A stretch of 20,843 bases of DNA, taken from IMG/VR virus record IMGVR_UViG_3300022074_000464, positions 1 through 20,843 of that record; one strand, written 5' to 3'. Numbering within the stretch: position 1 is the stretch's first letter; each line of letters starts with the position of its first letter. This stretch comes from a virus. Shown piece after piece: positions 1,595 to 20,843 of the stretch. Position numbers and translations under genes: made by a program. The notes under the pieces were generated by a model that worked only from the letters and a program-made list of their open reading frames with translations, was not told where the DNA came from and searched no databases.

Positions 1595-1598
1595 CTAG

Positions 1599-3260: not shown

Positions 3261-3304
3261 TATAACTATGTATGCCCAAAAAGGAAAATGGGTTAACATA
3301 GGAG
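3261..3304 (+). promoter_or_regulatory. promoter-like leader module before the DUF1127 gene
   Basis: TATAACTATG at 3261-3270 matches the motif at 105 and 10051. A small stem CCCA (3275-3278) with TGGG (3289-3292) follows, then AACATAGGAG (3295-3304), whose AGGAG is a strong Shine-Dalgarno six bases before ATG 3311. No good -35 lies at the right distance, so a phage-specific promoter is as likely as a sigma70 one. The same order of elements appears before the scaffold gene. Confidence 0.5.
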
Positions 3305-3310
3305 CATAAA

Positions 3311-3475: not shown

Positions 3476-3526
3476 AAAACACAATCAGTTCTTTAATGAT
3501 ACTAGGAGTACTTTTGGAGGAGGCTC

Positions 3527-3985: not shown

Positions 3986-4357
3986 ATGGCTAGAAACCTA
4001 ACAGAAAAACAACAGAAGTTCCTTGATGTCTTGTTTGAAGAAGCAGGGGGAGATGTTGTACAAGCTAAGAGGCTATCAGGCTATGGTGAACAGTCTAGTA
4101 CTACCGCCATTGTTGAGTCGTTGAAAGATGAGATAGGTGATCGTACTCGTAGTTACTTTGCACGTACAGCGCCTAAAGCTGCAATGGCTATGGTGGGTGC
4201 GCTAAGTGACCCAACAGAGCTAGGCATACGAGATAAGATGTCTGCAGCAAAAGACTTGCTTGACAGAGCAGGACTTGGTAAGGTAGATAGAGTAGACGTA
4301 TCGTCATCTAGCGGTGGCGTATTTATACTACCATCTAAAGAAGGAACAAACGAATAA
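3986..4357 (+). CDS. terS: terminase small subunit, 123 aa
   Basis: The small terminase subunit recognises the packaging site on phage DNA and delivers it to the large subunit. The N terminus (LTEKQQKFLDVLFEEAGGDVVQAKRLSGYG, split here at about residues 5-34) has the helix-turn-helix look of small terminases. The centre carries SAAKDLLDRAGLGKVDRVDV, typical of these subunits, and the C terminus ends with GGVFILPSKEG. The length of 123 residues is normal for the family. It directly precedes a conserved linking gene and the large subunit. The start ATG follows the previous stop with no gap. Its last codons, AAAGAAGGA, double as the Shine-Dalgarno of the next gene. Confidence 0.85.
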   Translation: MARNLTEKQQKFLDVLFEEAGGDVVQAKRLSGYGEQSSTTAIVESLKDEIGDRTRSYFARTAPKAAMAMVGALSDPTELGIRDKMSAAKDLLDRAGLGKVDRVDVSSSSGGVFILPSKEGTNE

Positions 4358-4779
4358 GTGTAAACCGTGAATCCCTTGGATATTGGGAACTACCTAGACC
4401 TCACAAGGGTGCAGAAAGAGACTGGCACGTAATAGCTAGAGTAACTAGAACAATACCGTTTGGTTACGAAGTTGACCCAGATAATGACAAGATACTTCAG
4501 CCTATCATTACAGAGCTAGAAGCCTTAGAACTTGCAAAGAAACATCTCATGCAGTACTCTTACAGAGAAGTAGCACTGTGGCTAACAAAACAAACAGGTA
4601 GATACATATCTGACGCAGGGCTAAAGAAAAGGGTAGACATTGAGCGAAAACGTAAGAAAGCAGCTACAATTAAACGCAAGCTTGCCAAAAGGCTCCAAGA
4701 AACGCTACAAGAGATCCAGAAGCTCGAAGAAGAATGTATTGGAGCCTACACAAACAAGTCAAGCGAAGCCAGAGCCTGA
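4354..4779 (+). CDS. conserved pre-terminase protein, apparent ATA start, 141 aa
   Basis: Between TerS and TerL lies an open frame whose translation begins NRESLGYWELPRPHKGAERD and continues TRTIPFGYEVDPDNDK, YSYREVALWLTKQTGRYIS and a Lys-rich coiled-coil tail. I recognise this arrangement in the gene before the large terminase of marine short-tailed phages; the function is unknown. The frame is open from 4339 but has no ATG, GTG or TTG until 4549, which would delete the conserved N-terminal half. ATA at 4354, overlapping the TerS stop, has AAGGA at 4341-4345 eight bases upstream, so I take it as the start. A sequencing error or recoding is the alternative. Confidence 0.75.
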   Translation: MSVNRESLGYWELPRPHKGAERDWHVIARVTRTIPFGYEVDPDNDKILQPIITELEALELAKKHLMQYSYREVALWLTKQTGRYISDAGLKKRVDIERKRKKAATIKRKLAKRLQETLQEIQKLEEECIGAYTNKSSEARA

Positions 4780-6229: not shown

Positions 6230-6231
6230 GA

Positions 6232-6432
6232 ATGAAAACATTTGTAGTTGTAATAAGCATGTGGGGTAACACTGGAAAAGAGTGGCTATACACAGGTAAT
6301 CAATATGTTATGCAAGAACTATTTACTAAAGAACAATGCGAACAGATTGTAAAAAACTCTAACTGGGAAAAATTTGAAACTAATGAGTACTATGGCTTAC
6401 AATTTGATTGCTTTAATAAGGATGACCGATAA
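6232..6432 (+). CDS. conserved small phage protein, 66 aa
   Basis: ATG at 6232, two bases after the TerL stop, opens a 66-residue frame: MKTFVVVISMWGNTGKEWLY, NQYVMQELFTKEQCEQIVKN and a C terminus ending in QFDCFNKDDR. I associate such a protein with the TerL-portal junction of marine phages; its function is not known. It is soluble with two cysteines. The frame extends upstream to 6163 but that part only translates the end of terL out of frame. It overlaps the portal start by one base. Confidence 0.75.
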   Translation: MKTFVVVISMWGNTGKEWLYTGNQYVMQELFTKEQCEQIVKNSNWEKFETNEYYGLQFDCFNKDDR

Positions 6433-8552
6433 TGGCTGAAATAGATGATCTAGCATTTGAGACAGATGATGTAGTAGCAGCAGAGGGGCAAGAAGATACT
6501 CTCTTTGAAAATGTAAGCAATGTAGTTACATTTGTAAATGATCGTTTCAAACGTGCAGAGGATGCTCGTAACGCTGATGAAGAACGGTGGCTAAGAGCTT
6601 ACAGAAACTATCGTGGTGTGTATGGTCCAGATGTACAGTTTACTTCTACTGAAAAGTCAAAAGTTTTTGTTAAGGTTACTAAGACTAAAACACTAGCAGC
6701 ATATGGACAGATTGTAGACGTACTCTTTGGTAATAACAAGTTCCCTCTTACAATCAACCCATCTGTTCTACCTGACGGTGTAGCTGATGCTGTCCACATT
6801 AATATTGATCCAAATGCTGAAAAAGCTACGGATGTACTTCGTGAATCGTTCACAAAAGAAACGACAAAGCCGTACCTCATAGGACCAGACACTGAGTTAA
6901 AGCCAGGTGAAACTATGGCTGATCTTAGGCGTAAGCTAGGGCCAGTAGAAGATAAAGTAGGTCCAGTATCTGAAAAGATAATAGAAGGTGACGGTAGTAC
7001 ACCTACAAGTGTAACATTCCATCCTGCTATGATAGCAGCTAAGAAGATGGAAAAGAAGATACACGATCAGTTGAACGAGTCTGGTGCATCTAAATACTTA
7101 CGAAGCATGGCATTCGAGATGGCGTTGCTAGGTACAGGTGTAATGAAAGGCCCATTCGCTGTAGATAAAGAGTATCCTAACTGGAATGATGAAGGTGAGT
7201 ATGATCCTCTTATTAAGACTGTGCCATCTACTAATCATGTAAGTGTGTGGAACTTCTACCCTGACCCTGTAGCTTCTTCTATGGATGATGCTGAATACGT
7301 AATTGAAAGGCACAAGATGTCTCGCAATCAGTTACGTGCATTGAAAGGTAGACCATACTTTATTGATGAAGCTATTGAGGCTGCTATAGACTTAGGACCA
7401 GACTATGTGCGTAAGCACTGGGAAATGAAGATGGAGGATGATGATACTGCTCCTTCAGATACTGAGCGTTGGCAAGTCCTAGAGTTCTGGGGCTACGTAG
7501 ATACAGACATCCTACAAGAGAACGGCATTAAGATACCTGCTGATATGAAGGACTTAGATGAAGTAAGTGCTAACATATGGGTAGTAAACGGTAAAGTAGT
7601 TCGTTGTGTGCTTAACCCATTCAAACCTGCACGTATTCCTTACTATGCTGTGCCTTATGAACATAACCCATACAGCTTCTTTGGTGTAGGTATTGCTGAA
7701 AATATGGATGATACACAAACATTGATGAACGGTTTCATGAGAATGGCTGTTGACAATGCTGTATTATCTGGTAATCTACTTATTGAGATAGACGAAACTA
7801 ACCTTGTACCTGGTCAGGACATGAGCGTGTATCCTGGCAAAGTCTTTCGCAGACAAGGCGGTGCACCTGGTCAAGCTATCTTTGGCACTAAGTTTCCAAA
7901 CGTTGCAGGTGAAAACATGCAGCTATTTGATAAGGCAAGGGTATTAGCAGATGAATCAACTGGTTTCCCATCTTTCGCTCATGGTCAAACAGGCGTTTCG
8001 GGTGTGGGTCGTACTGCTTCTGGTATTAGTATGCTTATGTCTGCTGCCAACGGTAGTATCAGGACTGTTGTAAAGAACGTAGACGATTATCTTCTAGCAC
8101 CTATAGGTAGAGCATTCTTTGCATTCAACATGCAGTTTGACTTTGATGAAGGTATACGTGGTGACTTAGAAGTAAAAGCTAATGGTACGGAAAGCCTCAT
8201 GGCTAACGAAGTACGTAGCCAACGCTTGATGCAATTCTTACAGGTAGCTTCTAACCCAATGTTAGCACCTTTTGCTAAGATGGATTACATTGTACGAGAG
8301 ATTGCTAAGAGCATGGACTTAGACCCTGATAAAGTTACAAACTCTATGGCAGACGCAGCAATACAAGCTGAGATAATGAAAGCTTTCCAACAACCTATGC
8401 CAACCCCTGAACAACAACAAGCTCCTCCTGAAGAAGGTGCACCACCTGCAGGTGCAGACGTACAAGACCCTACAGGCGCAGGAGGTGGAAACATAGGTAC
8501 AGGAACAGCCCCAGTTCCAGGTGAACAAGGATTTAGTGGTAATGTCGCTTAA
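6432..8552 (+). CDS. portal protein, 706 aa
   Basis: The portal is the dodecameric channel at one capsid vertex through which DNA enters and leaves. The length, the position between terL and scaffold, and sequence features fit a P22-type podoviral portal: an N-terminal helical region (NDRFKRAEDARNADEERWLR), a stem/wing region with VWNFYPDPVASSMDDAEYVI, and a conserved AHGQTGVSGVGRTASGISML segment from about 517 leading into the crown helices. The last 50-odd residues are rich in Pro, Gln and Gly and probably disordered. ATG 6432 overlaps the preceding stop by one base. No frameshift is seen. Confidence 0.9.
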   Translation: MAEIDDLAFETDDVVAAEGQEDTLFENVSNVVTFVNDRFKRAEDARNADEERWLRAYRNYRGVYGPDVQFTSTEKSKVFVKVTKTKTLAAYGQIVDVLFGNNKFPLTINPSVLPDGVADAVHINIDPNAEKATDVLRESFTKETTKPYLIGPDTELKPGETMADLRRKLGPVEDKVGPVSEKIIEGDGSTPTSVTFHPAMIAAKKMEKKIHDQLNESGASKYLRSMAFEMALLGTGVMKGPFAVDKEYPNWNDEGEYDPLIKTVPSTNHVSVWNFYPDPVASSMDDAEYVIERHKMSRNQLRALKGRPYFIDEAIEAAIDLGPDYVRKHWEMKMEDDDTAPSDTERWQVLEFWGYVDTDILQENGIKIPADMKDLDEVSANIWVVNGKVVRCVLNPFKPARIPYYAVPYEHNPYSFFGVGIAENMDDTQTLMNGFMRMAVDNAVLSGNLLIEIDETNLVPGQDMSVYPGKVFRRQGGAPGQAIFGTKFPNVAGENMQLFDKARVLADESTGFPSFAHGQTGVSGVGRTASGISMLMSAANGSIRTVVKNVDDYLLAPIGRAFFAFNMQFDFDEGIRGDLEVKANGTESLMANEVRSQRLMQFLQVASNPMLAPFAKMDYIVREIAKSMDLDPDKVTNSMADAAIQAEIMKAFQQPMPTPEQQQAPPEEGAPPAGADVQDPTGAGGGNIGTGTAPVPGEQGFSGNVA

Positions 8553-8736
8553 GGCTTTTGTAAACAATAAAGCAGAGTGGGATGCATTCTGTGAAGAACT
8601 AGATATATGGATTGATGAACAACAAAGACGATTAGAGCAAGGTGAAATGACTATAGACTTGCATCGTTGTCAAGGTGCGATAGGTATTCTTAGAAGACTA
8701 AAATATTTGAGGGATAAAGTTAATGGCAACAAATGA
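8542..8736 (+). CDS. small helical phage protein, 64 aa
   Basis: This short, soluble, helical protein (MSLKAFVNNKAEWDAFCEEL, then GEMTIDLHRCQGAIGILRRL and KYLRDKVNGNK) lies between the portal and the 439-residue virion-protein candidate. I associate similar proteins with the same place in related phages, with no established function. I chose ATG 8542 (AAGGA ten bases upstream, 11-base overlap with the portal stop) over GTG 8521, which lies in the portal tail. Its own stop overlaps the next start by 14 bases. Confidence 0.75.
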   Translation: MSLKAFVNNKAEWDAFCEELDIWIDEQQRRLEQGEMTIDLHRCQGAIGILRRLKYLRDKVNGNK

Positions 8737-10042
8737 AGACAAACAGATGGTACTGGCATTCATGGCTGATGAAGTTGATGTAGACCCAGTATCAGGCAAT
8801 GAAGTACCTCCAGGTTCACTACCTGAAGAAGTACGAGATGACATTCCTGCACAGCTAAGTGAAGGTGAGTATGTAGTACCTGCTGATGTTCTTCGTTTTT
8901 ATGGCATGAAGTTCTTTGAAGACCTAAGAGAAAACGCTAAAATAGAGTTAGCTCGTATGGATAGAGAAGGACGTATAGGTGGTCAACCTGTACCTGCTAA
9001 CGACAATGAACTTACACCTGAAGAGATGGCAGAGCTAGACTCAATCGGTGCAGCAGTAGGTGGCTTCATTACAGGTCAAGCTTCTCAGTCTACAATGTCA
9101 GATCCGTATCAACAACAGCAGATGATGTATAGACAAGGTGCACCTGTTGCTATGGGTAATGCAGGTTATGATAAAGGCGGTGTAGTTAGAGAGAATGATC
9201 CTACGCAAGCTGAGTTTGACTTTAGTAAATACATGGCAGGTTTTTCTTTTGCTATGCCTAGTGGATTCACTCCTGTATTGATGTACAAAGAAGGTGAGAA
9301 TCCTAAGTATGCTACTACCCAAGAAATGTATGACACAATGTTAAGTGATGGGTGGACTACTAACCTTATACAAACTACAACAGAAACTACAGTAGGTGAA
9401 GAGCCAGAGGTTAGTGACAATAGCTCTAGTGATCCACTCTCTACTAGTGTATCTTCTGCTGCTGAGTCAATGGAAGACAAAGACTTAGATAAAACAACTA
9501 AAGGTCTAGGCTTACTAGCTAACCTATCTACTGCACTAGCAGGTACATTAGGAATACCTGTAACTGCTCTTATAAACGCTAAGGCTGTAGCTGCTTACAA
9601 TGATAAACTGCAAGATCAAAGTAAACGTAAGGGAAGCATCTTCGGTGGTGAAGGTAGTTTGTATGAAGGATTAGAAGGCGGTAAAGATTTTGGTAATACG
9701 TGGTTAGGCGATTTATTAGGTTTTGACGATGAAGGCTTTGGTGTACAGGGAGACAATTTAAGAGATTCTTTTATGGGTACACGTAGAGATGGTAAAACTA
9801 CACAATTAGATAAATCAACTAGCTCAACAATTAAACCTAAACCAAGACCTGTAGAAACACCTGCAGTTAAAAATATAGTTAGAGAAGGTAATAGGGATAA
9901 CTCAATTATAGGTAAAGATGCAGGACCAGGAATGACTTGGGTAAAAGACCCAACAGGAAATAGTAATGCAATAGTAAGAGTAAGAAGTGACAGTGTAGCA
10001 GCTAAAGGACAAAAAGCTGCTATGGAAGGCTTTGACGAATAA
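8723..10042 (+). CDS. conserved putative virion protein, 439 aa
   Basis: The N-terminal region has a clear conserved stretch, DVDPVSGNEVPPGSLPEEV then RDDIPAQLSEGEYVVPADV and FYGMKFFEDLR (about 19-70), which I associate with a protein next to the portal in marine podoviruses. The middle is Gln-rich then Thr/Ser-rich and low in pattern. Residues about 259-296 form a glycine-punctuated hydrophobic stretch (GLGLLANLSTALAGTLGIPV). The C-terminal third is basic and polar. No enzymatic motif is visible. Position and hydrophobic segment would suit an internal or ejection protein, but this is inference. Start ATG 8723 has GAGGG nine bases upstream. Confidence 0.7.
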   Translation: MATNEDKQMVLAFMADEVDVDPVSGNEVPPGSLPEEVRDDIPAQLSEGEYVVPADVLRFYGMKFFEDLRENAKIELARMDREGRIGGQPVPANDNELTPEEMAELDSIGAAVGGFITGQASQSTMSDPYQQQQMMYRQGAPVAMGNAGYDKGGVVRENDPTQAEFDFSKYMAGFSFAMPSGFTPVLMYKEGENPKYATTQEMYDTMLSDGWTTNLIQTTTETTVGEEPEVSDNSSSDPLSTSVSSAAESMEDKDLDKTTKGLGLLANLSTALAGTLGIPVTALINAKAVAAYNDKLQDQSKRKGSIFGGEGSLYEGLEGGKDFGNTWLGDLLGFDDEGFGVQGDNLRDSFMGTRRDGKTTQLDKSTSSTIKPKPRPVETPAVKNIVREGNRDNSIIGKDAGPGMTWVKDPTGNSNAIVRVRSDSVAAKGQKAAMEGFDE

Positions 10043-10050
10043 TAATTCCA

Positions 10051-10098
10051 TATAACTATAAGGCTACCCAGTTTAATTACTGGCCCCAACATAAGGAG
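10051..10098 (+). promoter_or_regulatory. promoter-like leader module before the scaffold gene
   Basis: TATAACTATAAGG at 10051-10063 is followed by a stem CCAGT (10068-10072) with ACTGG (10079-10083) around loop TTAATT, and then AACATAAGGAG (10088-10098), the Shine-Dalgarno of ATG 10107. No -35 lies at a standard distance. Order and spacing repeat those of the module before the DUF1127 gene. Confidence 0.5.
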
Positions 10099-10106
10099 AA
10101 AACAAA

Positions 10107-11057
10107 ATGGCTGAAGTAGAACAAGTAGAGGTGCATTCCGCATCTCATATGCGTAACCAAGCAAGAATCGACAAGGATGAAGCAGAGCTACGTGAAATAC
10201 TAAAAGAAGCAGGGTATACACAGGAAGATGAAACCCAAGAAGAAACTGCTGAAGCTAAACCCGATAGCAAAGAGCCTGAAGCTAAACCAGTACAGGCAGA
10301 AGGTGATTCCAAACAAAAAGAAGAACCAAAAGCAGAAGCACAAGAAGCAGATGATGAAGATGATGACCTAAGTGCTGAAGAGAAGACTTTCAAGCAACGC
10401 TACGGTGACATCAGGCGGCACATGAAAGATAAGGAACAAGAGTGGAAACTCAGGTTCGAGAAGCTAGAGTCACAGCTAGAGTCTGCAACTAAGAATGAAC
10501 TTGTACTACCTAAGTCAGAGAAAGAGATAGAAGCTTGGTCTAAGAAGTACCCTGATGTAGCAGGTATAGTAGAAGCTATAGCTGATAAGAAAGCACAAGA
10601 GCGTTCATCAGATATAGATAAGCGACTAAAAGAAGTTGAAGAGCTAAGAGTTACAGCTAAACGTGAAAAAGCTGAAGCTGAACTATCTGTAATGCACCCT
10701 GACTTCAACACTATTCGTGCTGATGATACATTCCATGAGTGGGCTAAGGAACAGCCTAAGTGGGTACAAGATGCTTTGTATGAGAATGTAGATGATGCTA
10801 AGTCTGTATCTCGTGTAATAGATTTGTACAAAGCAGACAAAGGTATAACAACTAAGAAGAAGCCTACTGAAGATAAAGGTGCAGCTTCTTCTGTAACAAC
10901 AAAACGTACTACCATACCTAGCGACAATGAAGAGTCCAAGTATATTAGAGAATCTCAAGTTGCTAATATGTCTATCAAGGAATACGAAAAGCGTCAGGAC
11001 GAAATAATGGATGCCCAACGCTCAGGAAAGTTTATTTATGATATGTCAAGAAAATAG
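10107..11057 (+). CDS. scaffolding protein, 316 aa
   Basis: Scaffolding proteins guide coat protein assembly and are then expelled or degraded. Support comes from position directly before the major capsid gene and from composition. The N-terminal third is very acidic (for example DDEDDDLSAEEKTFKQRYGD near 82-101), long charged coiled-coil helices follow (DKEQEWKLRFEKLESQLES), a middle region contains MHPDFNTIRADDTFHEWAKE, and the C terminus is mixed-charge and helical with a basic end (DAQRSGKFIYDMSRK). This is the usual design of podoviral scaffolds. It has its own promoter-like leader and strong AAGGAG, as expected for a protein needed in hundreds of copies. Confidence 0.85.
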   Translation: MAEVEQVEVHSASHMRNQARIDKDEAELREILKEAGYTQEDETQEETAEAKPDSKEPEAKPVQAEGDSKQKEEPKAEAQEADDEDDDLSAEEKTFKQRYGDIRRHMKDKEQEWKLRFEKLESQLESATKNELVLPKSEKEIEAWSKKYPDVAGIVEAIADKKAQERSSDIDKRLKEVEELRVTAKREKAEAELSVMHPDFNTIRADDTFHEWAKEQPKWVQDALYENVDDAKSVSRVIDLYKADKGITTKKKPTEDKGAASSVTTKRTTIPSDNEESKYIRESQVANMSIKEYEKRQDEIMDAQRSGKFIYDMSRK

Positions 11058-11117
11058 TTGACAAAACAGATTTCATAAGTAAAACTATGGCATATACACC
11101 ATAACTGTGTGTATGCT
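11058..11117 (+). promoter_or_regulatory. major capsid gene promoter and start-site hairpin
   Basis: TTGACA at 11058-11063, a 16-base spacer and TAAAAC at 11080-11085 form a good sigma70-like promoter beginning right after the scaffold stop. Spacer length and the downstream ACTATGG match the promoter at 83-110. The expected start near 11092 falls at the foot of a hairpin: 11090-11099 pairs with 11107-11116 (ten pairs, one G-U) around loop CATAACT. A hairpin at the 5' end would stabilise the capsid mRNA (inference). Confidence 0.6.
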
Positions 11118-11278
11118 TTAACAAGCACTAGCCACAAAAAGACTTACCTCAAAGTATAGGCCCAGATCAGACTAGTAGGCCAATTAGTCTGTAAACTGAC
11201 TACCCTAACACCAAGAGCCTCTTTATAGTGGGTATGTAGTGTAAATTTTCACGCCATATCTATAAAGGAGATTTAACT
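11118..11278 (+). promoter_or_regulatory. long foldable leader of the major capsid gene
   Basis: No gene is seen here. CAGACTA (11168-11174) pairs perfectly with TAGTCTG (11185-11191). The same TAGTC can instead pair with GACTA (11198-11202), so two hairpins compete for one strand. The leader ends with AAGGAG (11265-11270), eight bases before ATG 11279. The competing pairs could regulate capsid expression or be chance; no known riboswitch class is recognised. Confidence 0.45.
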
Positions 11279-12343
11279 ATGGCTATAGCAGTTGCCTCTG
11301 GCAAAAGCGGATTTGACGGCAATTTCAGCCCGATTATCTATTCCAAACAAGCACAGATTGCTCTAAGAAAAGCATCTGTTGCAAACGCAATCACTAACAA
11401 CTCCTACTTCGGAGACATTGCAAACCAAGGTGATGTAGTTCGTATCCAGAAAGAGCCTGATGTAACAGTCAACGCTTTGGAGCGTAAAACTGCAATCTCC
11501 GTAGAAGACTTAGATGACTCTGAGTTTTCACTAACCATTGATAAAGCTAACTACTTTGCTTTTAAGATGGATGACATTGAAGATCAATTCTCATCAGTTG
11601 ATTTCGTAAGCCTAGCTGCAGACAGAGCAGCATACAAAATGGCTGACGCAATGGATGCAGATTTGCTTCAGTATATGTCAGGTCACTCTGCTGCAGGTGC
11701 TATCACTACCACAGTTTCAGGTACAGCACAGCACCCAACATCTGGTGAAATAAACGGTGAATTTTTAAAGGTTAACCGTTTAGATGCGTCTGACATTGGA
11801 CACATCACAACATCAGCTTCATCAGGTACAACTGGTGACTCCATTCCTCTAGCTGCACGTCTTCCAGGTGCAACAGCGTTGTCAACATCTGTGACATCTC
11901 CGTTGACTGTGATTGCACGTATGGCTCGTCAGATGGATACAGCAAATGTTGACTCACGAGGTAGATGGTTAGTTGTGGACCCTGTGTTCATGGAAATCTT
12001 AAAAGACGAAGATTCACGTCTATTAAATGCTGACTACGGTGGAGCAGGTCTACAAAACGGACTAGCTGTAAACAACTTACACGGCTTCCGACTTTATGTA
12101 TCTAACAACTTACCTGCTAAAGGTACAGGTGCAGGTACATCAGGTGCGACTGCCCAAGACGATCATTACGGTGTTATCTTGGCAGGTCAGGAAGATGCGG
12201 TTGCTTCTGCAGAGCAGATCAACAAAGTTGAAAACTACCGTGATCCAGACTCATTTGCAGACATTGTACGTGGTATGCACCTATACGGTCGCAAAATCTT
12301 GCGCCCACAAGCATTGGTGTCAGCCGTTTACAACGCTGCTTAA
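11279..12343 (+). CDS. major capsid protein, 354 aa
   Basis: This is the coat subunit, expected to adopt the HK97 fold. It follows the scaffold gene and has the typical make-up: a small N-terminal arm (MAIAVASGKSGFDGNFSPII), a patterned segment VVRIQKEPDVTV...ISVEDLDDSEFSLTIDKANY resembling the E-loop/P-domain region of podoviral coats, an Ala/Asp-rich spine helix (LAADRAAYKMADAMDADLLQ), and a C-terminal segment ending YGRKILRPQALVSAVYNAA. The length of 354 residues is normal. Translation signals are strong (AAGGAG, spacing 8). Codons look more C-rich than in neighbouring genes (AAC, TTC, CAC frequent), as expected for a highly expressed gene. The subfamily is not certain. Confidence 0.9.
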   Translation: MAIAVASGKSGFDGNFSPIIYSKQAQIALRKASVANAITNNSYFGDIANQGDVVRIQKEPDVTVNALERKTAISVEDLDDSEFSLTIDKANYFAFKMDDIEDQFSSVDFVSLAADRAAYKMADAMDADLLQYMSGHSAAGAITTTVSGTAQHPTSGEINGEFLKVNRLDASDIGHITTSASSGTTGDSIPLAARLPGATALSTSVTSPLTVIARMARQMDTANVDSRGRWLVVDPVFMEILKDEDSRLLNADYGGAGLQNGLAVNNLHGFRLYVSNNLPAKGTGAGTSGATAQDDHYGVILAGQEDAVASAEQINKVENYRDPDSFADIVRGMHLYGRKILRPQALVSAVYNAA

Positions 12344-12359
12344 TACTAAATATACTGTT

Positions 12360-12383
12360 GGGCGAGCTATGTCAAGCTTGCCC
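12360..12383 (+). terminator. hairpin after the major capsid gene
   Basis: GGGCGAGCT (12360-12368) pairs with AGCTTGCCC (12375-12383) over nine pairs, with one G-U, around loop ATGTCA. It lies 16 bases after the capsid stop. Only a short pyrimidine stretch follows, not a full T tract, so it may be a leaky terminator or an mRNA 3'-end stabiliser that keeps capsid expression above that of the tail genes. Confidence 0.5.
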
Positions 12384-12412
12384 TTCAGCTTATATAACAG
12401 TAGGATAACTCT

Positions 12413-13138
12413 ATGGCTACTTATGTCACACTAGTAAATGAATTGCTAAGACGTATGAACGAGGTCACACTTGACATTGCAGGTGATGGCTTTGATTCTG
12501 TAAGAAACGTACAAGCTTTAGCTAAAGACGCAGTAAATAGTAGCATTAGACTTATTCTACAGGATGGCCAGGAGTGGCCTTTCCTCAAAACAACTTTCAC
12601 ACAGACTCTTACTGTAGGCACAAGACAGTATGATTTTCCTGCAGACTATTCTAGCACAGACTGGGATACATTCTATCTTAAGAAACTAAGCTCCGAAAAC
12701 AACAGTCCTATGCCATTAAGTGTAATATCTTATGAGCAGTATATACAGAATGTACGTCCATCAGATGATACAGGTGATCAAGTAAATGGAGATGGACCTC
12801 CTGCACTAGTGTATCAAACATTAGGTACAGCTTTTGGTGTTAGCCCCATACCTAATGCAGCATATGAAATAGAGTATGTGTATTGGAAATTTCCTACAGA
12901 CTTAACTGCATTTAATGATGTATCAATTATACCAGATAGGTTTAAGCACGTAGTTATAGACGGTGCTATGATGTTTATGATGCGTTTCCGTAGCAATGAA
13001 CAAAGTGCTGCCATGCATCAGAATAACTTTGAAGACGGCATCAAGACAATGCGTAGAGTTTTAATTGATGATACTTTATTTGTACGCTCTACTGTTGTAG
13101 GTGATTCAAGGACAAGTTCATTTACTAGTGGTGTATAA
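12413..13138 (+). CDS. head-tail adaptor protein, 241 aa
   Basis: The protein is expected to form the ring that extends the portal and receives the tail nozzle, like P22 gp4 or T7 gp11. The N-terminal helical bundle (YVTLVNELLRRMNEVTLDIA, then a helix with DAVNSSIRLILQDGQEWPFL) and following beta region (TTFTQTLTVGTRQYDFPADY) are characteristic of these adaptors in marine podoviruses. A long C-terminal helix region (VIDGAMMFMMRFRSNEQSAA) follows. Position directly after the coat gene and before the nozzle agrees. TAGGA lies seven bases before ATG 12413, and the stop overlaps the next start by one base. Confidence 0.8.
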   Translation: MATYVTLVNELLRRMNEVTLDIAGDGFDSVRNVQALAKDAVNSSIRLILQDGQEWPFLKTTFTQTLTVGTRQYDFPADYSSTDWDTFYLKKLSSENNSPMPLSVISYEQYIQNVRPSDDTGDQVNGDGPPALVYQTLGTAFGVSPIPNAAYEIEYVYWKFPTDLTAFNDVSIIPDRFKHVVIDGAMMFMMRFRSNEQSAAMHQNNFEDGIKTMRRVLIDDTLFVRSTVVGDSRTSSFTSGV

Positions 13139-14682
13139 TGGCTGATAATCTAGCTTCCTTCAAAGTCTTCTGCCAAGGAGGTCTTAACACTAGTAGGGAT
13201 GTGCTTTCTCAAGGTGAGACACAGCCAGGATCAGCTATATCTTTGATCAATTACGAACCTGCTGTTACTGGTGGCTACAGAAAGATAAGCGGCTTTGCTA
13301 ATAATTATGGTTCTGTAACAGGCCAGGCTAACACACCAGTTCTAGGTGTTTGTGTAGCAGATGGTATTAATGACGGTATACTAGCTTGTAGAAAACCATC
13401 AACAGGTAATAATTATCTACACTACTGGAGCAACTCTGGTTCAGCATGGAATGCTGTAACTACTTCAGGCTCACCTACTATGACAGGTGTAACTAAGGTT
13501 AGATTCTCTAGACTTAACTTTGGTACACAAAAGGTAGTTTTAACAGATGGTATAAACCCTGCAGCTACATATGATGGTACAACTTACACGCAGATCACTC
13601 ACGCTAACGCTCCAACAGATCCTAAGTACTCTGCAATATTTCAAAATCATTTATTCTTAGCAGGTGACCCTGCTCATCCAACAAAGCTATTCTTTAGTGC
13701 ACCGCTAGATGAAACAGACTTTGCACCAGGTCAAGGGGCAGGTGTAATAAATGTAGGATTTCCTATAGTTGCAATTAAATCGTTTAGGAACGAACTATTT
13801 ATATTTGGTAGTACAAACATTAAAAAGCTAGGTGGTACTGCCCTAGCTAACTTTGTACTACAAACTGTTACTGATGACTTAGGATGCCTAGCTACAGATA
13901 GTGTTATAGAAATTGGTGGTGACTTACTATTCTTATCTCAGGATGGTCTACGCCCTATCTCAGGTACAGCAAAGATTGGTGATGTTAATCTAGAGACAGT
14001 ATCAAAAGACATTCAGTCTATTTTTACAGACATAGTTTTTGACATTGACCTTAACAGCTTGAATGCTGTAACTATAAAACAGAAGACACAGTTTAGATAC
14101 TTCTTTGGTGCAGCAGATTCACAAGGTGTTATAGGTGGATTTAGACAAACACCAAATGGATTACAGTTTGAGTATGGGCAGCTACTAGGTATAACAGCTA
14201 CTTGTGCTGACAGTGGTTATATAGGACAGAATGAATTTGTAATACATGGCACTCAAGATGGTAAAGTACACAGGCAAGAACAAGGAAATAGCTTTGATGG
14301 TACAGACATCTTTAGTTTATTCCAGACTCCGTTTTTTCATATGCAAGACCCAGAACAACGCAAAGTATTTTACACTGTAGCTACATACTTAAGATCCGAA
14401 GGTGATAACTCTATAGTTATGTCGGCTGTGTATGACTACGAAGACGTAGATACATTAAACCCAACTAACTTTAATTTGACAACAACAGGCGCTGCAGCAT
14501 ATTATAATGAAGCTATATATAATAGTACTGCAATCTTTGATGGTAATCCATCACCAGTGCAACGCACAAATATATCAGGATCAGGTAAATCCGCATCTTT
14601 AAAATTCGTAACTAATGATTCCAGTGCATCACACAGTGTCCAAGGTTTAGTGATTACATTTGGAGTAGGAGACAGGTTATAA
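13138..14682 (+). CDS. P22 gp10-like tail nozzle / DNA-stabilisation protein, 514 aa
   Basis: The nozzle plugs the portal-adaptor channel and holds packaged DNA. The protein starts FKVFCQGGLNTSRDVLSQGE then SLINYEPAVTGGYRKISGF, a beginning I recognise from phage gp10-like stabilisation proteins. The body is beta-rich and blade-like, with HLFLAGDPAHPTKLFFSAPL, FPIVAIKSFRNELFIFGSTN and DLLFLSQDGLRPISGTAKIG, consistent with a beta-propeller. The size is near that of P22 gp10. It overlaps the adaptor by one base and precedes the fibres, as expected for a short-tailed phage. An exact family match would need a profile search. Confidence 0.8.
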   Translation: MADNLASFKVFCQGGLNTSRDVLSQGETQPGSAISLINYEPAVTGGYRKISGFANNYGSVTGQANTPVLGVCVADGINDGILACRKPSTGNNYLHYWSNSGSAWNAVTTSGSPTMTGVTKVRFSRLNFGTQKVVLTDGINPAATYDGTTYTQITHANAPTDPKYSAIFQNHLFLAGDPAHPTKLFFSAPLDETDFAPGQGAGVINVGFPIVAIKSFRNELFIFGSTNIKKLGGTALANFVLQTVTDDLGCLATDSVIEIGGDLLFLSQDGLRPISGTAKIGDVNLETVSKDIQSIFTDIVFDIDLNSLNAVTIKQKTQFRYFFGAADSQGVIGGFRQTPNGLQFEYGQLLGITATCADSGYIGQNEFVIHGTQDGKVHRQEQGNSFDGTDIFSLFQTPFFHMQDPEQRKVFYTVATYLRSEGDNSIVMSAVYDYEDVDTLNPTNFNLTTTGAAAYYNEAIYNSTAIFDGNPSPVQRTNISGSGKSASLKFVTNDSSASHSVQGLVITFGVGDRL

Positions 14683-14683
14683 T

Positions 14684-16993
14684 ATGGCAGGTTATACAAG
14701 ACAATCAGTAGCTGACATTATCGCTAATGCGGTTATTAAAGCTGCACCAGTAAACGCAGAGTATAACGCAATACGAGATGCTTTTGCTTTATCAGGCGGT
14801 CACAGACATGATGGTAGTTCTACAGAGGGTGCGTATGTACCCCTTATTGCTGACACGGATGCCTTAAACAAAGTTGTAATAGATACTAGTAATAACCGTA
14901 TAGGTTTCTTCAGTGAAGTAGGTGGGGCTGCAGTAGAACAAGTACGTATACAAGATGGTGCTATTGTTCCTGTAACTGACGATGATATAGACATTGGTAC
15001 TACATTATTAAAATTTAAAGATATACACATAGATGGCGTAGGATATTTTGACTCTATATCTGTATCGGGTACTGCTGCTTTTTCAAACATAGACATTAAT
15101 GGAGGTACTATTGATGGTGCAAGTATTGGTGCTTCTAGTGCTGATGCAGGTAGCTTTACAACTGTATCGTCATCTGGACAAGCCACACTTGCAAGTGTTG
15201 ATATTAATGGCGGTGCAGTGGATGGTACTATTATTGGTGCAACAACTCCATCATCTGTAGCCGCTACAACAGTCACAGCCTCATCAGGTTTTACAGGAGC
15301 ATTGCAAGGGCAAGTTACAGGAAATGTGACAGGTAATGTTAGTGGTGATTTAACAGGAGATGTGACAGGTAACGTAACTGCAGGTTCTGGCTTATCTACA
15401 TTTAATAATGTAACAGTCAACGGAACACTGGACGTTACAGGTACAACTATTGCTAACGTTACTGATCCCAGTTCTGCACAGGATGCTGCGACTAAAAATT
15501 ATGTTGATACACAGGTATCAGGACTTGTAGACTCAGCACCTGGAGCATTAAACACACTCAACGAACTAGCTGCAGCTATTAACGATGATGCAAGTTTTAG
15601 TACAACTATTACAAATAGTATAGCTACTAAGCTACCCCTTGCAGGTGGTACAATGTCGGGTGCTATAGCTATGGGTACTGCTAAGATTACAGGCTTAGGT
15701 GATCCAACAGCTAACCAAGATGCAGCAACTAAAAAGTATACAACCGATACATTCTTACCGTTAGCAGGTGGCACATTAACAGGTGCTATAGACATGGGTA
15801 GTCAAAAGATTACGACTACTTATACACCTACTAATAATCCTGACATCACAACCAAAGCTTATGTTGATGGCTTGTTTGGTAGCAGCCAAAACGCCTCTAC
15901 TTCAGCTACCAATGCACAAGCTTCTGCAACTGCTGCTGCAACTAGCGAAACAAATGCAGGTAACTCAGCTACGGCTGCTGCATCAAGTGCTACATCTGCA
16001 GCTTCAAGTGCAACATCTGCTGCTGCTTCTTTTGATGATTTTGATGATAGATACCTTGGACCTAAGTCTTCAGCTCCCACAGTTGACAATGACGGTGACG
16101 CCTTAGTTGCAGGTGCTCTCTATTTTAATACAGCAGTAAATATTCTTTATGTATACTCTACTGGTGGTGCATGGCAAGCTGCAGGTTCTTCAGTAAATGG
16201 AACATCTGGTAGAGAAGACTATGTTGTTGGAACTTCATCAGGGTCTTACAGTGGGTCAACTACAACCTTTCCTGCTACATATGATCCAGGCTTTGTAGAT
16301 GTCTATATGAACGGTATAAAATTAGCACCTACAGACTTTACATCTACAAGTGGAACAACTATAGTTTTAGGAACGGCTGCATCTACTAACGATGTCATTT
16401 CTATTGTAGGGTACGGTACATTTTCGTTAGGAAATATGTATACGCAAGCACAGTCTGATGCAAGGTACGCCCAACTAAGTGGTGCTACATTTACAGGAGA
16501 TGTAGATTTTGGTAGTAACAAAATTACTTACTCTAATGTCTACTCAAATGAAAATGATTTACCAAGTGCTAGTACGTATCACGGAATGTTTGCACACGTA
16601 CACGGTACAGGGAAAGCATATTTTGCACATGCAGGTAATTGGATAAAATTAGTTAGCCCAGAGACTTCTGGTGATTATGACTTTGGCAGTAATAAAATTA
16701 CTTACTCTAATGTTTATTCAAATGAATCAGACCTCCCATCAGCAAGCACGTACCACGGCATGTTTGCACACGTACATGGTACTGGCAAGGGGTACTACGC
16801 ACACGGTGGAAACTGGATAAAGCTTGTAAATGAAAATAGCTCTGGTGGTGTAGTACTTGGAAGTAATTGGACAGTAACTGAAAGTGGTGGGTCATTGTAC
16901 TTTGCTACTGGAGGTGTTAATAAAATGAAACTTGATGCTAATGGCAACTTAGATGTTGTTGGCGCAGTCAACTCAAACGCAACAATAAGCTAA
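14684..16993 (+). CDS. modular tail fibre protein, 769 aa
   Basis: The N-terminal domain (YTRQSVADIIANAVIKAAPV, GGHRHDGSSTEGAYVPLI) is the probable virion-attachment part. Fibre repeats follow: INGGTIDGASIGASS and INGGAVDGTIIGATT modules, a TGN/TGD run (about 210-231), two LPLAGGT...GAI.MG..KIT modules (from about 316 and 358), an Ala/Ser-rich coiled-coil-like stalk (about 403-455) with FDDFDDRYLG, and an ALYFNTAVNILYVY box. The C-terminal part carries two copies of a 50-residue His-rich module. These are typical trimeric fibre building blocks. No enzymatic or chaperone domain is recognised. The start ATG follows the nozzle stop by one base. Confidence 0.85.
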   Translation: MAGYTRQSVADIIANAVIKAAPVNAEYNAIRDAFALSGGHRHDGSSTEGAYVPLIADTDALNKVVIDTSNNRIGFFSEVGGAAVEQVRIQDGAIVPVTDDDIDIGTTLLKFKDIHIDGVGYFDSISVSGTAAFSNIDINGGTIDGASIGASSADAGSFTTVSSSGQATLASVDINGGAVDGTIIGATTPSSVAATTVTASSGFTGALQGQVTGNVTGNVSGDLTGDVTGNVTAGSGLSTFNNVTVNGTLDVTGTTIANVTDPSSAQDAATKNYVDTQVSGLVDSAPGALNTLNELAAAINDDASFSTTITNSIATKLPLAGGTMSGAIAMGTAKITGLGDPTANQDAATKKYTTDTFLPLAGGTLTGAIDMGSQKITTTYTPTNNPDITTKAYVDGLFGSSQNASTSATNAQASATAAATSETNAGNSATAAASSATSAASSATSAAASFDDFDDRYLGPKSSAPTVDNDGDALVAGALYFNTAVNILYVYSTGGAWQAAGSSVNGTSGREDYVVGTSSGSYSGSTTTFPATYDPGFVDVYMNGIKLAPTDFTSTSGTTIVLGTAASTNDVISIVGYGTFSLGNMYTQAQSDARYAQLSGATFTGDVDFGSNKITYSNVYSNENDLPSASTYHGMFAHVHGTGKAYFAHAGNWIKLVSPETSGDYDFGSNKITYSNVYSNESDLPSASTYHGMFAHVHGTGKGYYAHGGNWIKLVNENSSGGVVLGSNWTVTESGGSLYFATGGVNKMKLDANGNLDVVGAVNSNATIS
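16505..16828 (+). repeat. duplicated 150-bp module in the fibre gene
   Basis: Bases 16505-16654 and 16679-16828 encode 50-residue copies running from DFGSNKITYSNVYSNE to AHxGNWIKLV, with a shared YHGMFAHVHGTGK core. Codon by codon I count 46 identical residues, 4 substitutions and 23 synonymous changes, so the duplication is old and held by purifying selection. The HxH and AH positions are kept in both. Confidence 0.85.
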
Positions 16994-17008
16994 TAGGGGA
17001 TTCCGAAG

Positions 17009-20000
17009 ATGGCTTTAAAAGTAGGCGGCACAGAAGTTGTAGATAACAACCGACAGCTAAAAAACATTGCAACCATAGACAGTGGTACAGTCACCGCATT
17101 TAACAGTGCGCTTAATACTGACCCAACCAAAGGCACACTTACAAAGACGTTTGCCCAAAACGAAACGGCTGAGATAACACTTAGCTCTAATGTAACTGTA
17201 GGGCCAGTAGTATCTGCAACGAAGGAAGTACCACAAACAGGCATTAGCACTAAGGGTAACTGGGATGTAAATAGTACAGCATCGAACTACGACTTCCACA
17301 ATACGGCTGCGAATGTGACGCTTACGCCTAGTACTATTGGTTATGATTTAAGTGCTTTTTCGTATGATAGTAAAAGCTTTAATACTAATGTTAATATACA
17401 AGGAATTGACATTAGTAGCGATGGCACAAGAATATATTACGCTCAAAGCAGTGGTCAAATAAAACAAAGAACATTATCAACATCATTGGATATTTCTACA
17501 GCAGGTTCGGAAACATATTATGACCAATCGGCTCAAGACAATGAACCAAAAGATATAACATTTAAACCTGATGGTACTAAAATGTATGTAACAGGTAACC
17601 AATATAATCAGGTAGCCCAATATAGTTTAAGTACTGCTTGGGATATTACGACTGCAAGTTATGATATTAAATTTAAACAAGTACAAAGCCAAACGACTTC
17701 CCCTAGAAGCACTCAGTTTAAATCTGATGGTACTAAAATGTATGTTTTGGATGCTACTCACATAATTGAATATAGTTTATCAACTGCTTGGGATGTTTCA
17801 ACGGCATCTTATACAAACACTATTTTTCAAGTAAGCGGTCAAGACAGCGGCCCTAACGGCTTGGCCTTGAAGCCAGATGGCACAAAGATTTATGTTAGTG
17901 GTATAACTAACGATAAAGTTTATCAATATAATTTTGGAACTGCTTGGGATTTATCAACTCTTTCATACAGTAGCAGTACAGCTTCTTTTAGTTCAACAAG
18001 TGGACAACCAAGAGGTTTAGCTTTTAGTGCAAATGGTGGAAAAATGTATATTGGAGATTTTTCATCAGCTTATATATATCAGTTTACCACAGGAACAGAG
18101 GGTCTAGTTCTAGGCTCTGGCTCATTCGCAAGTACAGATGTCGGCAAACGCATCACAGGAAATGGCGGTGATGTAGTCCTAACGTCTACTGGCGGTGCAT
18201 TTAGCACAACAGGCGGCTCTGCATTTACGGATAGCAGTACGATAGCGGCAGGGTCTTGGTCTATGTTTGGTTTGAAAAGCGCAGGTGATGCTGATGGTAT
18301 TACTATATCTTCTGGCGCTGGAAGTGGTTCTGTAGATATAGATCAGGCAATAGAGGGTAGTAATACTTACCTTTATAGTGGAACAACAACTTCTGGTATT
18401 GATGTAACATTTAAACCTGATGGTACAAAAATGTATCTTGCAGATTTTAATGGTAATTCAGTTCGAGAATTTAATTTATCTACTGCATGGGATTTAACAA
18501 CAGCTAGTTATGTACAAAACTATGCATGGTCTAGTGCAACTTATGGTACTCAAACTACTTCTATGGCATTTAAGTCTGATGGAACAAGTTTTTATATTGT
18601 TAATTGGGGTTATGATTATTTACTGCAATTTAACCTTTCTACTGCTTGGGATGTTTCTACAGCAAGTTTTTATAATGCAAAAGACGTTTCTCAAAGCAGT
18701 TGGGGTTCTGTAAATAATCCAATAGGTTTACAGTTTAGTCCTGACGGTACTAAACTTTATATGAACTCAAATGCTGGTGATAAAACAGTCCAAATTAATT
18801 TAACTTCTGCATGGACTATAAATGGTGGGCAAACCGTTGCTCACACACATTCTCTTAGTTCCCAAATCTCAGGCTCTAATACAACAGCATTTGGTATTAA
18901 TTCTACTGGTACAAAAGTATATATTGGATCAACCGCTAGTTATAATCCAATATTCCAATACACTTTAAGCACACCTTATGATTTAAGCACTATTTCTTAT
19001 GACAATAAAAGTTTTCAAACAAGCTATGCTAGTGGTGGTTATGTTGGTGCTCTGTATGGAATATATATAAAACCTGATGACAGTAAATTTTATGCGACAG
19101 CATATAATGATTCTAAAGTACATGAGTGGAGTATTGCAACTTTTACCCAACCCACAGGTCAATATCATGTTGGCGTAACGAACACTTCTGGGCGCATAGA
19201 CAGTTCAGCATTCACAGACATCAACGGAATGACAGCCGCACAAAGCGCAGGGACAGGCACAGTTAACTACGCAGTCAGTACTGATGGCAGAACTACTTGG
19301 TCTGTAGCAAAAGCTACTGATGGTGTCAGGCCGATTGTGCGGAATAACAGCGGTACATGGCAGTATAATAATAACGCAGGGGTAGCATCTACTTACCAAG
19401 TAGCAAACCCTACTTATGTTCAAGTTAAATTTATAGGTACTGCTGCTATTCATGGGTTATTTATGAAGCCAGATGGTACTAAATTATATTACCAACAATA
19501 TACTGGTGGTTTAAGTGAGTGGGATTTATCTACACCTTACGACGTATCTACGGCTACTTACAATAATGTTACTAACACCTCTGCATTTAGTGGTCTAAGT
19601 AATGCTGGAACTGGTAACTATTTCGATCCAACTGGAACCTATTACTACATAACGAATATAGCTAATAATCAAGTTTCTCGTTGGACGCTGAGTACACCTT
19701 GGGATATTTCTACTTTAGGCTCTCGTCAAAATCAGTCCATCAGTGTTTCTGGTAATTTACTAGGTATTGATTTAAAAACTGATGGTACAAAAATGTTTTT
19801 ATGTACGGAGAACTCAGTAGTTGCTTATAATTTAAGTACTGCTTGGGATAACACGTCAGTCACTTCTAGCACACCAAATGTTACTTACAGTTTAGCAAGT
19901 TTTAGTGGGGCAGCGGCAGAAGCAATAAGATTTAAATCAGACGGTACAGAATTTTATATCTTAGACAAAAACAATAGCACAAGAATTTACATTTATTCAT

Positions 20001-20521
20001 TGTCTACTGCTTGGGATATTAGCACTGCTTCATATAGTTCGTATTACCAAATAACTGAAAGTATAACTACTGGGAGAGCTTTGGCGTTATCAAGTGATGG
20101 AAACAAAATGTATATTGTTGACGAAGCAAGTAGCGCAAGAACTTACGAGTACACTATTGGTTCATCAGCATACGCCACTACAGCTACATGGGCTAACGGC
20201 ACAGTCAATGATGAACTCTACACCCTACAACAAGCATTAGGCGCACAGTCTCATAACCGCATGGACAAAACCCAACTAGACGCTGTTGCCGATGCCAACC
20301 ATTTCGCCACTGGCACAAGCCTAGACCTGATGATTGCACTTAGGATGGATGCGGCTGCGTCTACACTGCCAACGAGTGATGGCGTTACGTTAAATTACGA
20401 TGCGGCTGCGTTGAACGAGGGTGCGGTATTGGGTACGGATTATGACTTCTTCCACCCTGCTGCCAATAAGGTGCAGATTAAATCGTTGGCTGCACAGAAC
20501 CTCAAAGTAAGAGTTGTATAG
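17009..20521 (+). CDS. large propeller-blade adhesin / receptor-binding protein, 1170 aa
   Basis: The N terminus (ALKVGGTEVVDNNRQLKNIA) resembles phage fibre starts. The body alternates blocks of about 50-residue repeats with non-repeat scaffold. Repeats follow the pattern KPDGTKMYV...QY.LSTAWDISTASY. Blocks span residues about 112-361, 452-713 and 801-1050, each with five blade motifs. Scaffold parts include FASTDVGKRITGNGGDVVL, GQYHVGVTNTSGRIDSSAF, RPIVRNNSGTWQYNNN and a C terminus TLPTSDGVTLNYDAAALNEG...LKVRVV, which I associate with marine phage fibre proteins. A virion-surface adhesin that binds host glycans is the likely role (inference). GGGGA eight bases upstream supports ATG 17009. 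Base composition differs sharply between blocks and scaffold. Confidence 0.8.
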   Translation: MALKVGGTEVVDNNRQLKNIATIDSGTVTAFNSALNTDPTKGTLTKTFAQNETAEITLSSNVTVGPVVSATKEVPQTGISTKGNWDVNSTASNYDFHNTAANVTLTPSTIGYDLSAFSYDSKSFNTNVNIQGIDISSDGTRIYYAQSSGQIKQRTLSTSLDISTAGSETYYDQSAQDNEPKDITFKPDGTKMYVTGNQYNQVAQYSLSTAWDITTASYDIKFKQVQSQTTSPRSTQFKSDGTKMYVLDATHIIEYSLSTAWDVSTASYTNTIFQVSGQDSGPNGLALKPDGTKIYVSGITNDKVYQYNFGTAWDLSTLSYSSSTASFSSTSGQPRGLAFSANGGKMYIGDFSSAYIYQFTTGTEGLVLGSGSFASTDVGKRITGNGGDVVLTSTGGAFSTTGGSAFTDSSTIAAGSWSMFGLKSAGDADGITISSGAGSGSVDIDQAIEGSNTYLYSGTTTSGIDVTFKPDGTKMYLADFNGNSVREFNLSTAWDLTTASYVQNYAWSSATYGTQTTSMAFKSDGTSFYIVNWGYDYLLQFNLSTAWDVSTASFYNAKDVSQSSWGSVNNPIGLQFSPDGTKLYMNSNAGDKTVQINLTSAWTINGGQTVAHTHSLSSQISGSNTTAFGINSTGTKVYIGSTASYNPIFQYTLSTPYDLSTISYDNKSFQTSYASGGYVGALYGIYIKPDDSKFYATAYNDSKVHEWSIATFTQPTGQYHVGVTNTSGRIDSSAFTDINGMTAAQSAGTGTVNYAVSTDGRTTWSVAKATDGVRPIVRNNSGTWQYNNNAGVASTYQVANPTYVQVKFIGTAAIHGLFMKPDGTKLYYQQYTGGLSEWDLSTPYDVSTATYNNVTNTSAFSGLSNAGTGNYFDPTGTYYYITNIANNQVSRWTLSTPWDISTLGSRQNQSISVSGNLLGIDLKTDGTKMFLCTENSVVAYNLSTAWDNTSVTSSTPNVTYSLASFSGAAAEAIRFKSDGTEFYILDKNNSTRIYIYSLSTAWDISTASYSSYYQITESITTGRALALSSDGNKMYIVDEASSARTYEYTIGSSAYATTATWANGTVNDELYTLQQALGAQSHNRMDKTQLDAVADANHFATGTSLDLMIALRMDAAASTLPTSDGVTLNYDAAALNEGAVLGTDYDFFHPAANKVQIKSLAAQNLKVRVV
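17342..18091 (+). repeat. propeller block 1, five blade motifs
   Basis: Five blades have their DGT-type turns near residues 138, 188, 240, 290 and 342 (SSDGTRIYY, KPDGTKMYV, KSDGTKMYV, KPDGTKIYV, SANGGKMYI). The period is about 50 residues, and YSLSTAWDxSTASY follows most turns. It is AT-rich compared with the flanking scaffold codons. Confidence 0.8.
18362..19147 (+). repeat. propeller block 2, five blade motifs
   Basis: Five blades have turns near residues 470, 523, 578, 632 and 690 (KPDGTKMYL, KSDGTSFYI, SPDGTKLYM, NSTGTKVYI, KPDDSKFYA). The period is about 54 residues. The last two turns are more diverged than the first three. Confidence 0.8.
19409..20158 (+). repeat. propeller block 3, five blade motifs
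   Basis: Five blades have turns near residues 821, 874, 925, 978 and 1030 (KPDGTKLYY, DPTGTYYYI, KTDGTKMFL, KSDGTEFYI, SSDGNKMYI). The period is about 52 residues. The same LSTxWDxST strand follows the first four turns. Confidence 0.8.
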
Positions 20522-20530
20522 GAGATATAA

Positions 20531-20843
20531 ATGTCTAGAGCAAGAGATTTAGCAAGTTTAATGTCGCAGGGAAACCTGCTGCAAGATGGTGTTATAAGCA
20601 CTACTGAAGTAGATGGCGTTACTGCTACATCTGCAGAGTTAAATAAGTTAGATGGTGTAACTGCAAACACAACAGAGCTAAACAAATTAGCAGGTGTTAC
20701 CGCAAGTACAGCAGAAATAAATAAACTTACAGGTGTTACTGCTAGTACTACAGAGATAAATAAACTTACAGGTTTATCTGCTTCTACTGTAGAAATAAAT
20801 AGAATAGCAGGTGTAACCTCAGATATTCAAACTCAGATTAACA
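20531..20843 (+). CDS. tail fibre protein, N-terminal part, runs off the window
   Basis: ATG 20531, six bases after AGGAG at 20520-20524, opens a frame that continues to the window end (104 complete codons, no stop). The N terminus is MSRARDLASLMSQGNLLQDG, a fibre-like start. Five tandem 13-residue repeats follow (DGVTATSAELNKL and variants), a motif common in phage fibre shafts. It is the third fibre-type gene in a row. The missing C terminus would hold the tip domain, so specificity cannot be judged. Confidence 0.8.
   Translation, partial: MSRARDLASLMSQGNLLQDGVISTTEVDGVTATSAELNKLDGVTANTTELNKLAGVTASTAEINKLTGVTASTTEINKLTGLSASTVEINRIAGVTSDIQTQIN
20612..20806 (+). repeat. five tandem 39-bp (13-residue) fibre repeats
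   Basis: The units read DGVTATSAELNKL, DGVTANTTELNKL, AGVTASTAEINKL, TGVTASTTEINKL and TGLSASTVEINRI, and a sixth begins AGVTSDIQ. The 13-residue period suggests a regular beta-structured trimeric shaft. The third and fourth units are most alike at DNA level, which hints at recent unit duplication. Confidence 0.8.

Follow-up and report, generated by a model that had tools for sequence, protein, structure and literature searches.

How a phage protein comes to consist of repeat blocks set in a non-repeat scaffold, and what such a protein does, is the question raised by one gene of the IMG/VR virus record IMGVR_UViG_3300022074_000464, all 20,843 bases of which were analysed and are referred to here as the window. 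The gene is a single open frame on the + strand (nt 17009-20521) encoding a candidate adhesin of 1170 amino acids (aa). A sequence-only reading of the window had explained it by AT-rich propeller cassettes inserted three times into an older, GC-richer fibre protein, giving a swappable multivalent receptor-binding device. The joint reading favoured here, at a probability of about 0.8, is that a short-tailed marine phage of the HMO-2011 type has, in this protein, an adhesin associated with its tail, and that the conserved scaffold islands of the adhesin would offer four surface loops as slots. Each slot would be occupied by one complete five-bladed propeller, occasionally by a LamG-like binding fold, or by a few closing residues, and phages would swap single propellers, groups of propellers or the whole gene via recombination in the islands and flanks.

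The blade motif, ..F.PDGTK.YV.., was located at aa 138, 188, 240, 290 and 342 in block 1, at aa 471, 524, 579, 636 and 690 in block 2, and at aa 822, 874, 925, 978 and 1029 in block 3. A blade profile returned exactly three times five, in agreement with the 15 motifs of about 50 residues that the sequence-only reading had counted in three blocks of five. In an AlphaFold2 model based on an alignment of 29 natural relatives, with a mean predicted local distance difference test score (pLDDT) of 77.7 (for the most part 80-93 in the first two blocks and 67-89 in the third), the protein formed three rings, each of five four-stranded blades. In every block, the strand preceding the first full blade completed the last blade; thus, each block is predicted to close by itself as a five-bladed propeller, as had been proposed. 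The predicted template modelling (pTM) score was about 0.5, at which the placement of the rings relative to one another is unreliable. A relative with one propeller, modelled alone, also had five blades (pLDDT mostly 88-96), and exactly five were detectable in 192 of 234 slots of relatives. Predicted models, strand order and first-strand closure all agree with the five-bladed beta-propeller fold. A search of PDB and BFVD with the whole three-propeller model returned multi-propeller proteins of low TM-score or the protein's own homologues and was not used for function, and a structure search with the one-propeller model returned generic propellers only.

The scaffold comprises about 350 residues in the order S1-S2-S3-S4a-S4b. 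As delimited by the open frame, profile searches, the AlphaFold model and comparison with relatives, the parts on the + strand are island S1 (nt 17114-17344; 91-93% aa identity to relatives L007 and L006), slot 1 (nt 17345-18091, aa 113-361; swapped or absent in relatives), S2 (nt 18092-18319), slot 2 (nt 18320-19141, aa 438-711), S3 (nt 19142-19393), slot 3 (nt 19394-20164, aa 796-1052), S4a (nt 20165-20242, ending ..ATWANGTVNDELYTLQQALG), slot 4 (nt 20243-20254) and S4b (nt 20255-20518, from NRMDKTQLDAVAD.. to the C-terminus). No model in Pfam, PHROG or NCBIfam covers the scaffold, and PHROGs gave no match to the 1170-aa protein. Slots 1 to 3 each hold a propeller, and slot 4 consists of 4 aa, a pattern of three propellers and one empty slot (P/P/P/E). 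In many relatives S4 is interrupted, hence there are four slots, S1/S2, S2/S3, S3/S4a and S4a/S4b, and not three. The fourth, filled by a propeller in about one quarter of 119 relatives, lay beyond what could be seen from the window alone.

These relatives were obtained by scans with the four islands and, as a fifth query, the contiguous S1-S2 sequence of members with an empty slot 1, the best 80 of roughly 200 matching contigs being taken per scan; a complete scaffold was present in 119 non-redundant proteins among the matches listed. Their 476 slots included 206 that were empty, being closed by 11 residues or fewer, and 261 with a single insert of 206-338 residues (median 266). Only one insert (121 aa) fell within 30-200 residues, the remainder being longer or multi-propeller. 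The occupancy patterns were P/P/P/E (36 proteins), P/P/E/P (25), E/P/E/E (22), P/P/E/E (11), E/P/P/E (5), E/P/E/P (4), P/E/E/E (2) and E/E/P/E (1), and the remaining ones involve multiple or non-propeller inserts. Empty and filled junctions coincide at the same scaffold residues; an empty slot 3, for example, reads ..GTWQYNSNAT directly followed by YGSETW.., where filled ones open. Aligned scaffold homologues that always carried all three blocks at the same places would have argued against cassettes; they were looked for, and the slots were instead found empty, filled or occupied by another fold in many combinations. Discrete propeller cassettes in a conserved scaffold, as the sequence-only reading had it, are therefore retained, but not its simple history of three insertions, since occupancy changed at least 11, 3, 9 and 12 times in slots 1 to 4 on the scaffold tree, figures that are rough because the islands themselves recombine. 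A scaffold with all four slots empty was looked for and none was present among the 119, which favours neither the scaffold nor the cassettes as the older part. None of the 119 had propellers in both slots 3 and 4, an exclusion that largely follows two clades and may reflect history rather than constraint.

Inserts other than single propellers were also found. A LamG domain (PF13385) fills slot 2 in the cultured phage CRP-738, L052 and L036 (E 2e-13 to 7e-15) and in L497 (E 1.5e-10), and slot 2 of L521 carries a 352-residue insert of unassigned fold. Sub-threshold matches of the LamG inserts to Pfam toxin models were weak and were set aside as fold noise. Two or three propellers occupy slot 2 of a few members. 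In L237, L166 and L243, slot 2 is filled by some 798 residues; measured in L243, 15 blades follow one another at regular intervals of 52 residues, which may represent three propellers or a larger array. A 121-residue insert in slot 3 at L491:3852-4214 (..HPLRLSTTSDG..YYYCSAHSGMGG..) appears cupredoxin-like by eye and had no Pfam match.

Single propellers were exchanged independently of one another. Between the window and L007, aa identity alternates along the protein, being 91% in S1, 27% in block 1, 87% in S2, 28% in block 2, 91% in S3, 33% in block 3 and 94% in S4. For slots 1 to 3, identity was 97, 25 and 92% between L152 and L149, and 96, 29 and 34% between L041 and L048. The slot 1 cassette of CRP-2 (L003) recurs in L035, L023 and L051 at 88-94%, with scaffolds at 73-85% and the other slots at about 30% (L035, 94% in slot 1 and 85% in the scaffold); L004 and L042 share slot 3 at 92% and the scaffold at 76%; L160 and L099 share slot 2 at 95%, only one of the two having a filled slot 1. 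Thus proteins with one propeller in common at 84-97% identity can differ elsewhere, their other propellers being about 30% identical. In pairs with 85-99% identical scaffolds, 197 of 239 block comparisons were below 50%.

At the slot borders, DNA identity steps from 88-100% down to about 40% and back up in the next island. Crossovers fall within S1-S3, and in L092/L011 and L152/L149 the change sits inside S1 and S2. When the window was compared with its close relatives, the longest stretches of exactly matching DNA were 17-71 nt in S1, S2, S3 and S4b, 8-31 nt in the short island S4a, and 11-18 nt in the blocks. This distribution among close relatives, with long matches in islands and not in blocks, fits homologous recombination in the islands as the probable route of crossover.

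Exchange of the entire gene within one phage species was observed as well. Over nt 1-16251, the window and contig IMGVR_UViG_3300017714_000041 share 99.68% identity, and there is no mismatch in nt 11114-15094 or 15893-17085. Divergence begins at codon 26; all three propellers differ, the islands share 82-89% DNA identity, and full identity returns after the stop codon (nt 20546-20725), so that in an otherwise 99.7% identical phage contig the tract nt 17086-20545 has been replaced. A second independent contig, L182, has the same alternative allele. One phage species therefore has two adhesin alleles, the result of whole-allele replacement. The left edge of the replaced tract is the end of the N-terminal leader (codons 1-26, MALKVGGTEVVDNNRQLKNIATIDS.., nt 17009-17085, + strand), where 100% identity to L183 over nt 15893-17085 breaks. 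This leader is common to otherwise different fibre genes, since L331 aligns over nt 16863-17080 only and runs into a different 549-aa protein. Same-species contigs were sought by capsid, which gave one with the gene, and by the neighbouring fibre, which was more productive. In L007, a scaffold 86-94% identical in aa to that of the window accompanies a major capsid protein (MCP) at 49% and tail genes at 37-43%, indicating that whole genes also move between phage backbones. Separately, L322, L331 and L328, with capsids 95-97% identical to that of the window, have other fibre genes where the adhesin would sit, and the homology of L331 does not extend beyond about codon 24, close to where the tract replaced between the window and L183 has its edge.

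In the four-stranded blade topology, one face of a propeller bears the BC and DA loops, and the opposite face bears the AB and CD loops. Over 704 blades, mean entropy was about 3 bits in the BC/DA loops versus about 1.4 bits in the AB/CD loops, one face being hypervariable and the opposite face constant, as expected of a binding face. Because blade variability lies on one face, the propellers would bind a receptor; position beside a fibre gene and replacement by LamG agree. Displayed on the virion, the protein may thus use the variable blade face to contact glycans or proteins of the host surface, and different propellers in related, even nearly identical phages probably let them change what they stick to. 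Of the proposed swappable multivalent receptor-binding device, the independent exchange of single blocks is borne out, while receptor binding keeps the standing of a probable function.

A different account would have an ancestral three-propeller protein whose propellers diverged fast in place under diversifying selection, with no exchange of cassettes. It would explain why, in almost every pair, the scaffold has changed much less than the propellers, and why blocks favour their own slot (nearest relative in the same slot for 137 of 234 blocks versus 83 +/- 8 by permutation). This preference is not strict, the window's slot 1 being closest to slot 3 of the sister contig (68% nt), and divergence in place would leave neither the many empty or LamG-filled slots, nor segments of 95-100% nt identity adjoining ones of about 40%, nor single blocks more alike than their scaffolds (93% versus 73% in L003/L023); we regard it as very improbable. 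Equally hard to credit is a mosaic produced largely by metagenome assembly across conserved islands. Most members are indeed IMG/VR contigs, and the islands are where wrong joins would be expected; however, the complete genomes of cultured CRP-2, CRP-9, CRP-13 and CRP-738 show the same mosaic (scaffold 69-95%, blocks 27-50%, and 16-20% between blocks and the CRP-738 LamG), the sister allele occurs in two independent contigs, and the CRP-2 slot 1 cassette recurs in three. The propellers might instead be enzymes that act on the host surface, SMP-30/lactonase-like or glycan-degrading, and not simply binding domains. In Pfam, SGL and Lactonase are matched weakly, though above threshold, and degradation of cell material is suspected for some phage propellers of solved structure (PMC4901313). 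The matches (PF08450, PF10282) cover only about 80-130 of 246-344 profile positions; the blades number five, not six or seven; the variable loops have no conserved polar residue, which a shared active site would demand; and LamG, mostly a binding fold, occupies the same slot. An enzymatic role is accordingly unlikely, though less remote than the two preceding accounts.

Base composition was a mainstay of the sequence-only reading, whose five 60-base G+C counts (20, 20, 30, 33 and 33) were exact. Segment GC is 0.44 in S1, 0.34 in block 1, 0.50 in S2, 0.34 in block 2, 0.48 in S3, 0.36 in block 3 and 0.50 in S4. At fourfold-degenerate sites, it is 35% in the scaffold versus 12% in the blocks (Fisher p = 1.2e-10), so the contrast lies in synonymous sites and not in amino acids alone. 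The same contrast is present in 75 of 92 relatives (p = 7e-13; mean fourfold GC 0.30 in scaffold, 0.22 in blocks and 0.27 in other genes) and, together with the recurrence of five blades, indicates that the pattern is not due to chance. In the window, however, the blocks (0.12) are close to the other genes (0.14) and the scaffold (0.37) is the outlier, so the blocks are not the foreign-looking part, and in the clade L008/L009/L011, of the same architecture, the contrast is missing. The argument from GC alone that the blocks are of recent foreign origin was therefore rejected, and the picture of AT-rich cassettes entering an older GC-richer fibre is not supported: GC does not support a direction of insertion. 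Codon-level selection or blade composition has about an even chance of being the cause of the contrast. The agreement of the window's blocks with its genome and the recurrence of the contrast in lineages with unrelated blocks speak for it; against it, fourfold GC tracks that of the flanking genes less closely in blocks than in scaffold (slope 0.30 versus 0.47), as would be expected of mobile cassettes.

The window contains packaging and structural genes only, including those for TerL and an SU10-like portal and adaptor. Its MCP is 76.6% identical to that of Roseobacter phage CRP-603, 76.3% to CRP-2, 77% to CRP-207 and 58.6% to HMO-2011, and the homologous MCP and morphogenesis genes place the phage among short-tailed phages of the HMO-2011 type. 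The adhesin gene lies in the tail-fibre region, directly 3' of a tail-fibre gene and 5' of a gene with tail-like repeats, and members of its family occupy the corresponding genome position in CRP-2, CRP-9, CRP-13 and CRP-738.

Several observations weigh against the four-slot, host-binding adhesin favoured here. The homologues in isolates are labelled hypothetical protein, and CRP-603, equally close by capsid, has no adhesin gene, so that the protein may be an accessory adhesin. CRP-2, CRP-9 and CRP-13 share the host strain FZCC0023 but no propeller above about 50% identity; propellers are therefore no simple strain key, and several receptors or additional adhesins must be involved. Random family pairs have no long exact scaffold matches, these being found among close relatives only; direct partners would therefore be close relatives, and distant exchange would need intermediates or another route. 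Finally, most family contigs are metagenomic assemblies, yet the pattern recurs in the isolates.

When bacterial and archaeal genomes were scanned with S4, three contigs of metagenome-assembled genomes (MAGs) matched, which says nothing firm on hosts. One of them, L392 (PBGS01000047.1), binned as a Euryarchaeota MAG, has S4 at 92% identity and is probably a stray phage contig. The upstream fibre gene contains a direct repeat of 143 bases (nt 16505-16647 and 16679-16821, about 78% identical), which duplicates YSNE.DLPSASTYHGMFAHVHGTG... The next gene (nt 20531-20843) starts with MSRARDLASLMSQG and has TATTAELNKLDGVTA-type repeats; in CRP-2, CRP-9 and CRP-13, such a MSRARDLASLMSQG-type N-terminus is fused to the scaffold, indicating that the N-terminal anchor is modular too. 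L008, L009 and L011 have tandem paralogues with one or more propeller blocks directly downstream of the three-propeller gene. Propellers of the same type occur singly in other fibre proteins of unrelated phages (L005, L015, L016, L018, L019 and the Synechococcus phages S-SKS1 and S-SCSM2R), from which cassettes may have come.

The closest functional parallel is the evolved distal tail protein (Dit) known from phages infecting Gram-positive bacteria. In the surface loops of this conserved tail protein, carbohydrate-binding modules may or may not be inserted, and the inserts extend adsorption (PMC7291167, PMC10688798). Both have binding modules, present or absent, in loops of a conserved protein. 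Evolved Dits, however, have one or two such inserts in the galectin domain of a siphophage distal tail protein, whereas the window protein has four slots, taking five-bladed propellers, in a scaffold unrelated to Dit; its bearer is a short-tailed marine phage, and exchange proceeds block by block. With a scaffold covered by no model and an SU10-like portal and adaptor, it is not a siphophage Dit but by analogy would work like an evolved one. The receptor-binding protein Gp45 of phi11 likewise has a five-bladed propeller, thought to hold a sugar in its central cavity (PMC4901313), but each chain of the trimer, which has a helical stem and a tower, bears one propeller and no slots; no sequence relation to it was found. 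In the roseophages CRP-2, CRP-9, CRP-13 and CRP-738, which have the HMO-2011-type module, the same family is annotated as hypothetical, and the word propeller does not occur in the three papers on them (PMC6918029, PMC8528129, PMC9038755).

Targets of diversity-generating retroelements undergo point changes at chosen sites in a constant phage protein. They resemble the present family in having a variable binding surface on a constant phage protein, but here whole 265-residue domains are replaced, cores included, leaving blocks of about 30% aa identity beside scaffolds of about 90%. Inserted binding modules and the five-bladed propeller were thus already known from evolved Dits and phi11, respectively; for the four-slot scaffold with interchangeable propellers, no description was found in the papers searched, all from the open (non-subscription) literature.

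Phages of the HMO-2011 type are counted with the most abundant groups of marine viruses (PMC6918029, PMC9038755), and no account of their host recognition was found in the literature searched. The window protein offers a concrete candidate for it with a readable code, that is, four positions, each empty or with a named cassette. Since natural pairs differ in one slot, and the window and its sister contig differ almost only in the adhesin gene within the compared region, the evolution of host range becomes testable; the scaffold is also a natural plug-in platform tolerating propellers and lectin-like folds. More tentatively, and at somewhat less than even odds, the gene may be a combinatorial display platform, in which islands homogenised by repeated transfer serve as recombination handles and a shared marine pool of propellers and lectin-like folds is dealt slot by slot. 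If so, one phage species would keep several adhesin alleles, in the manner of a shufflon but between genomes.

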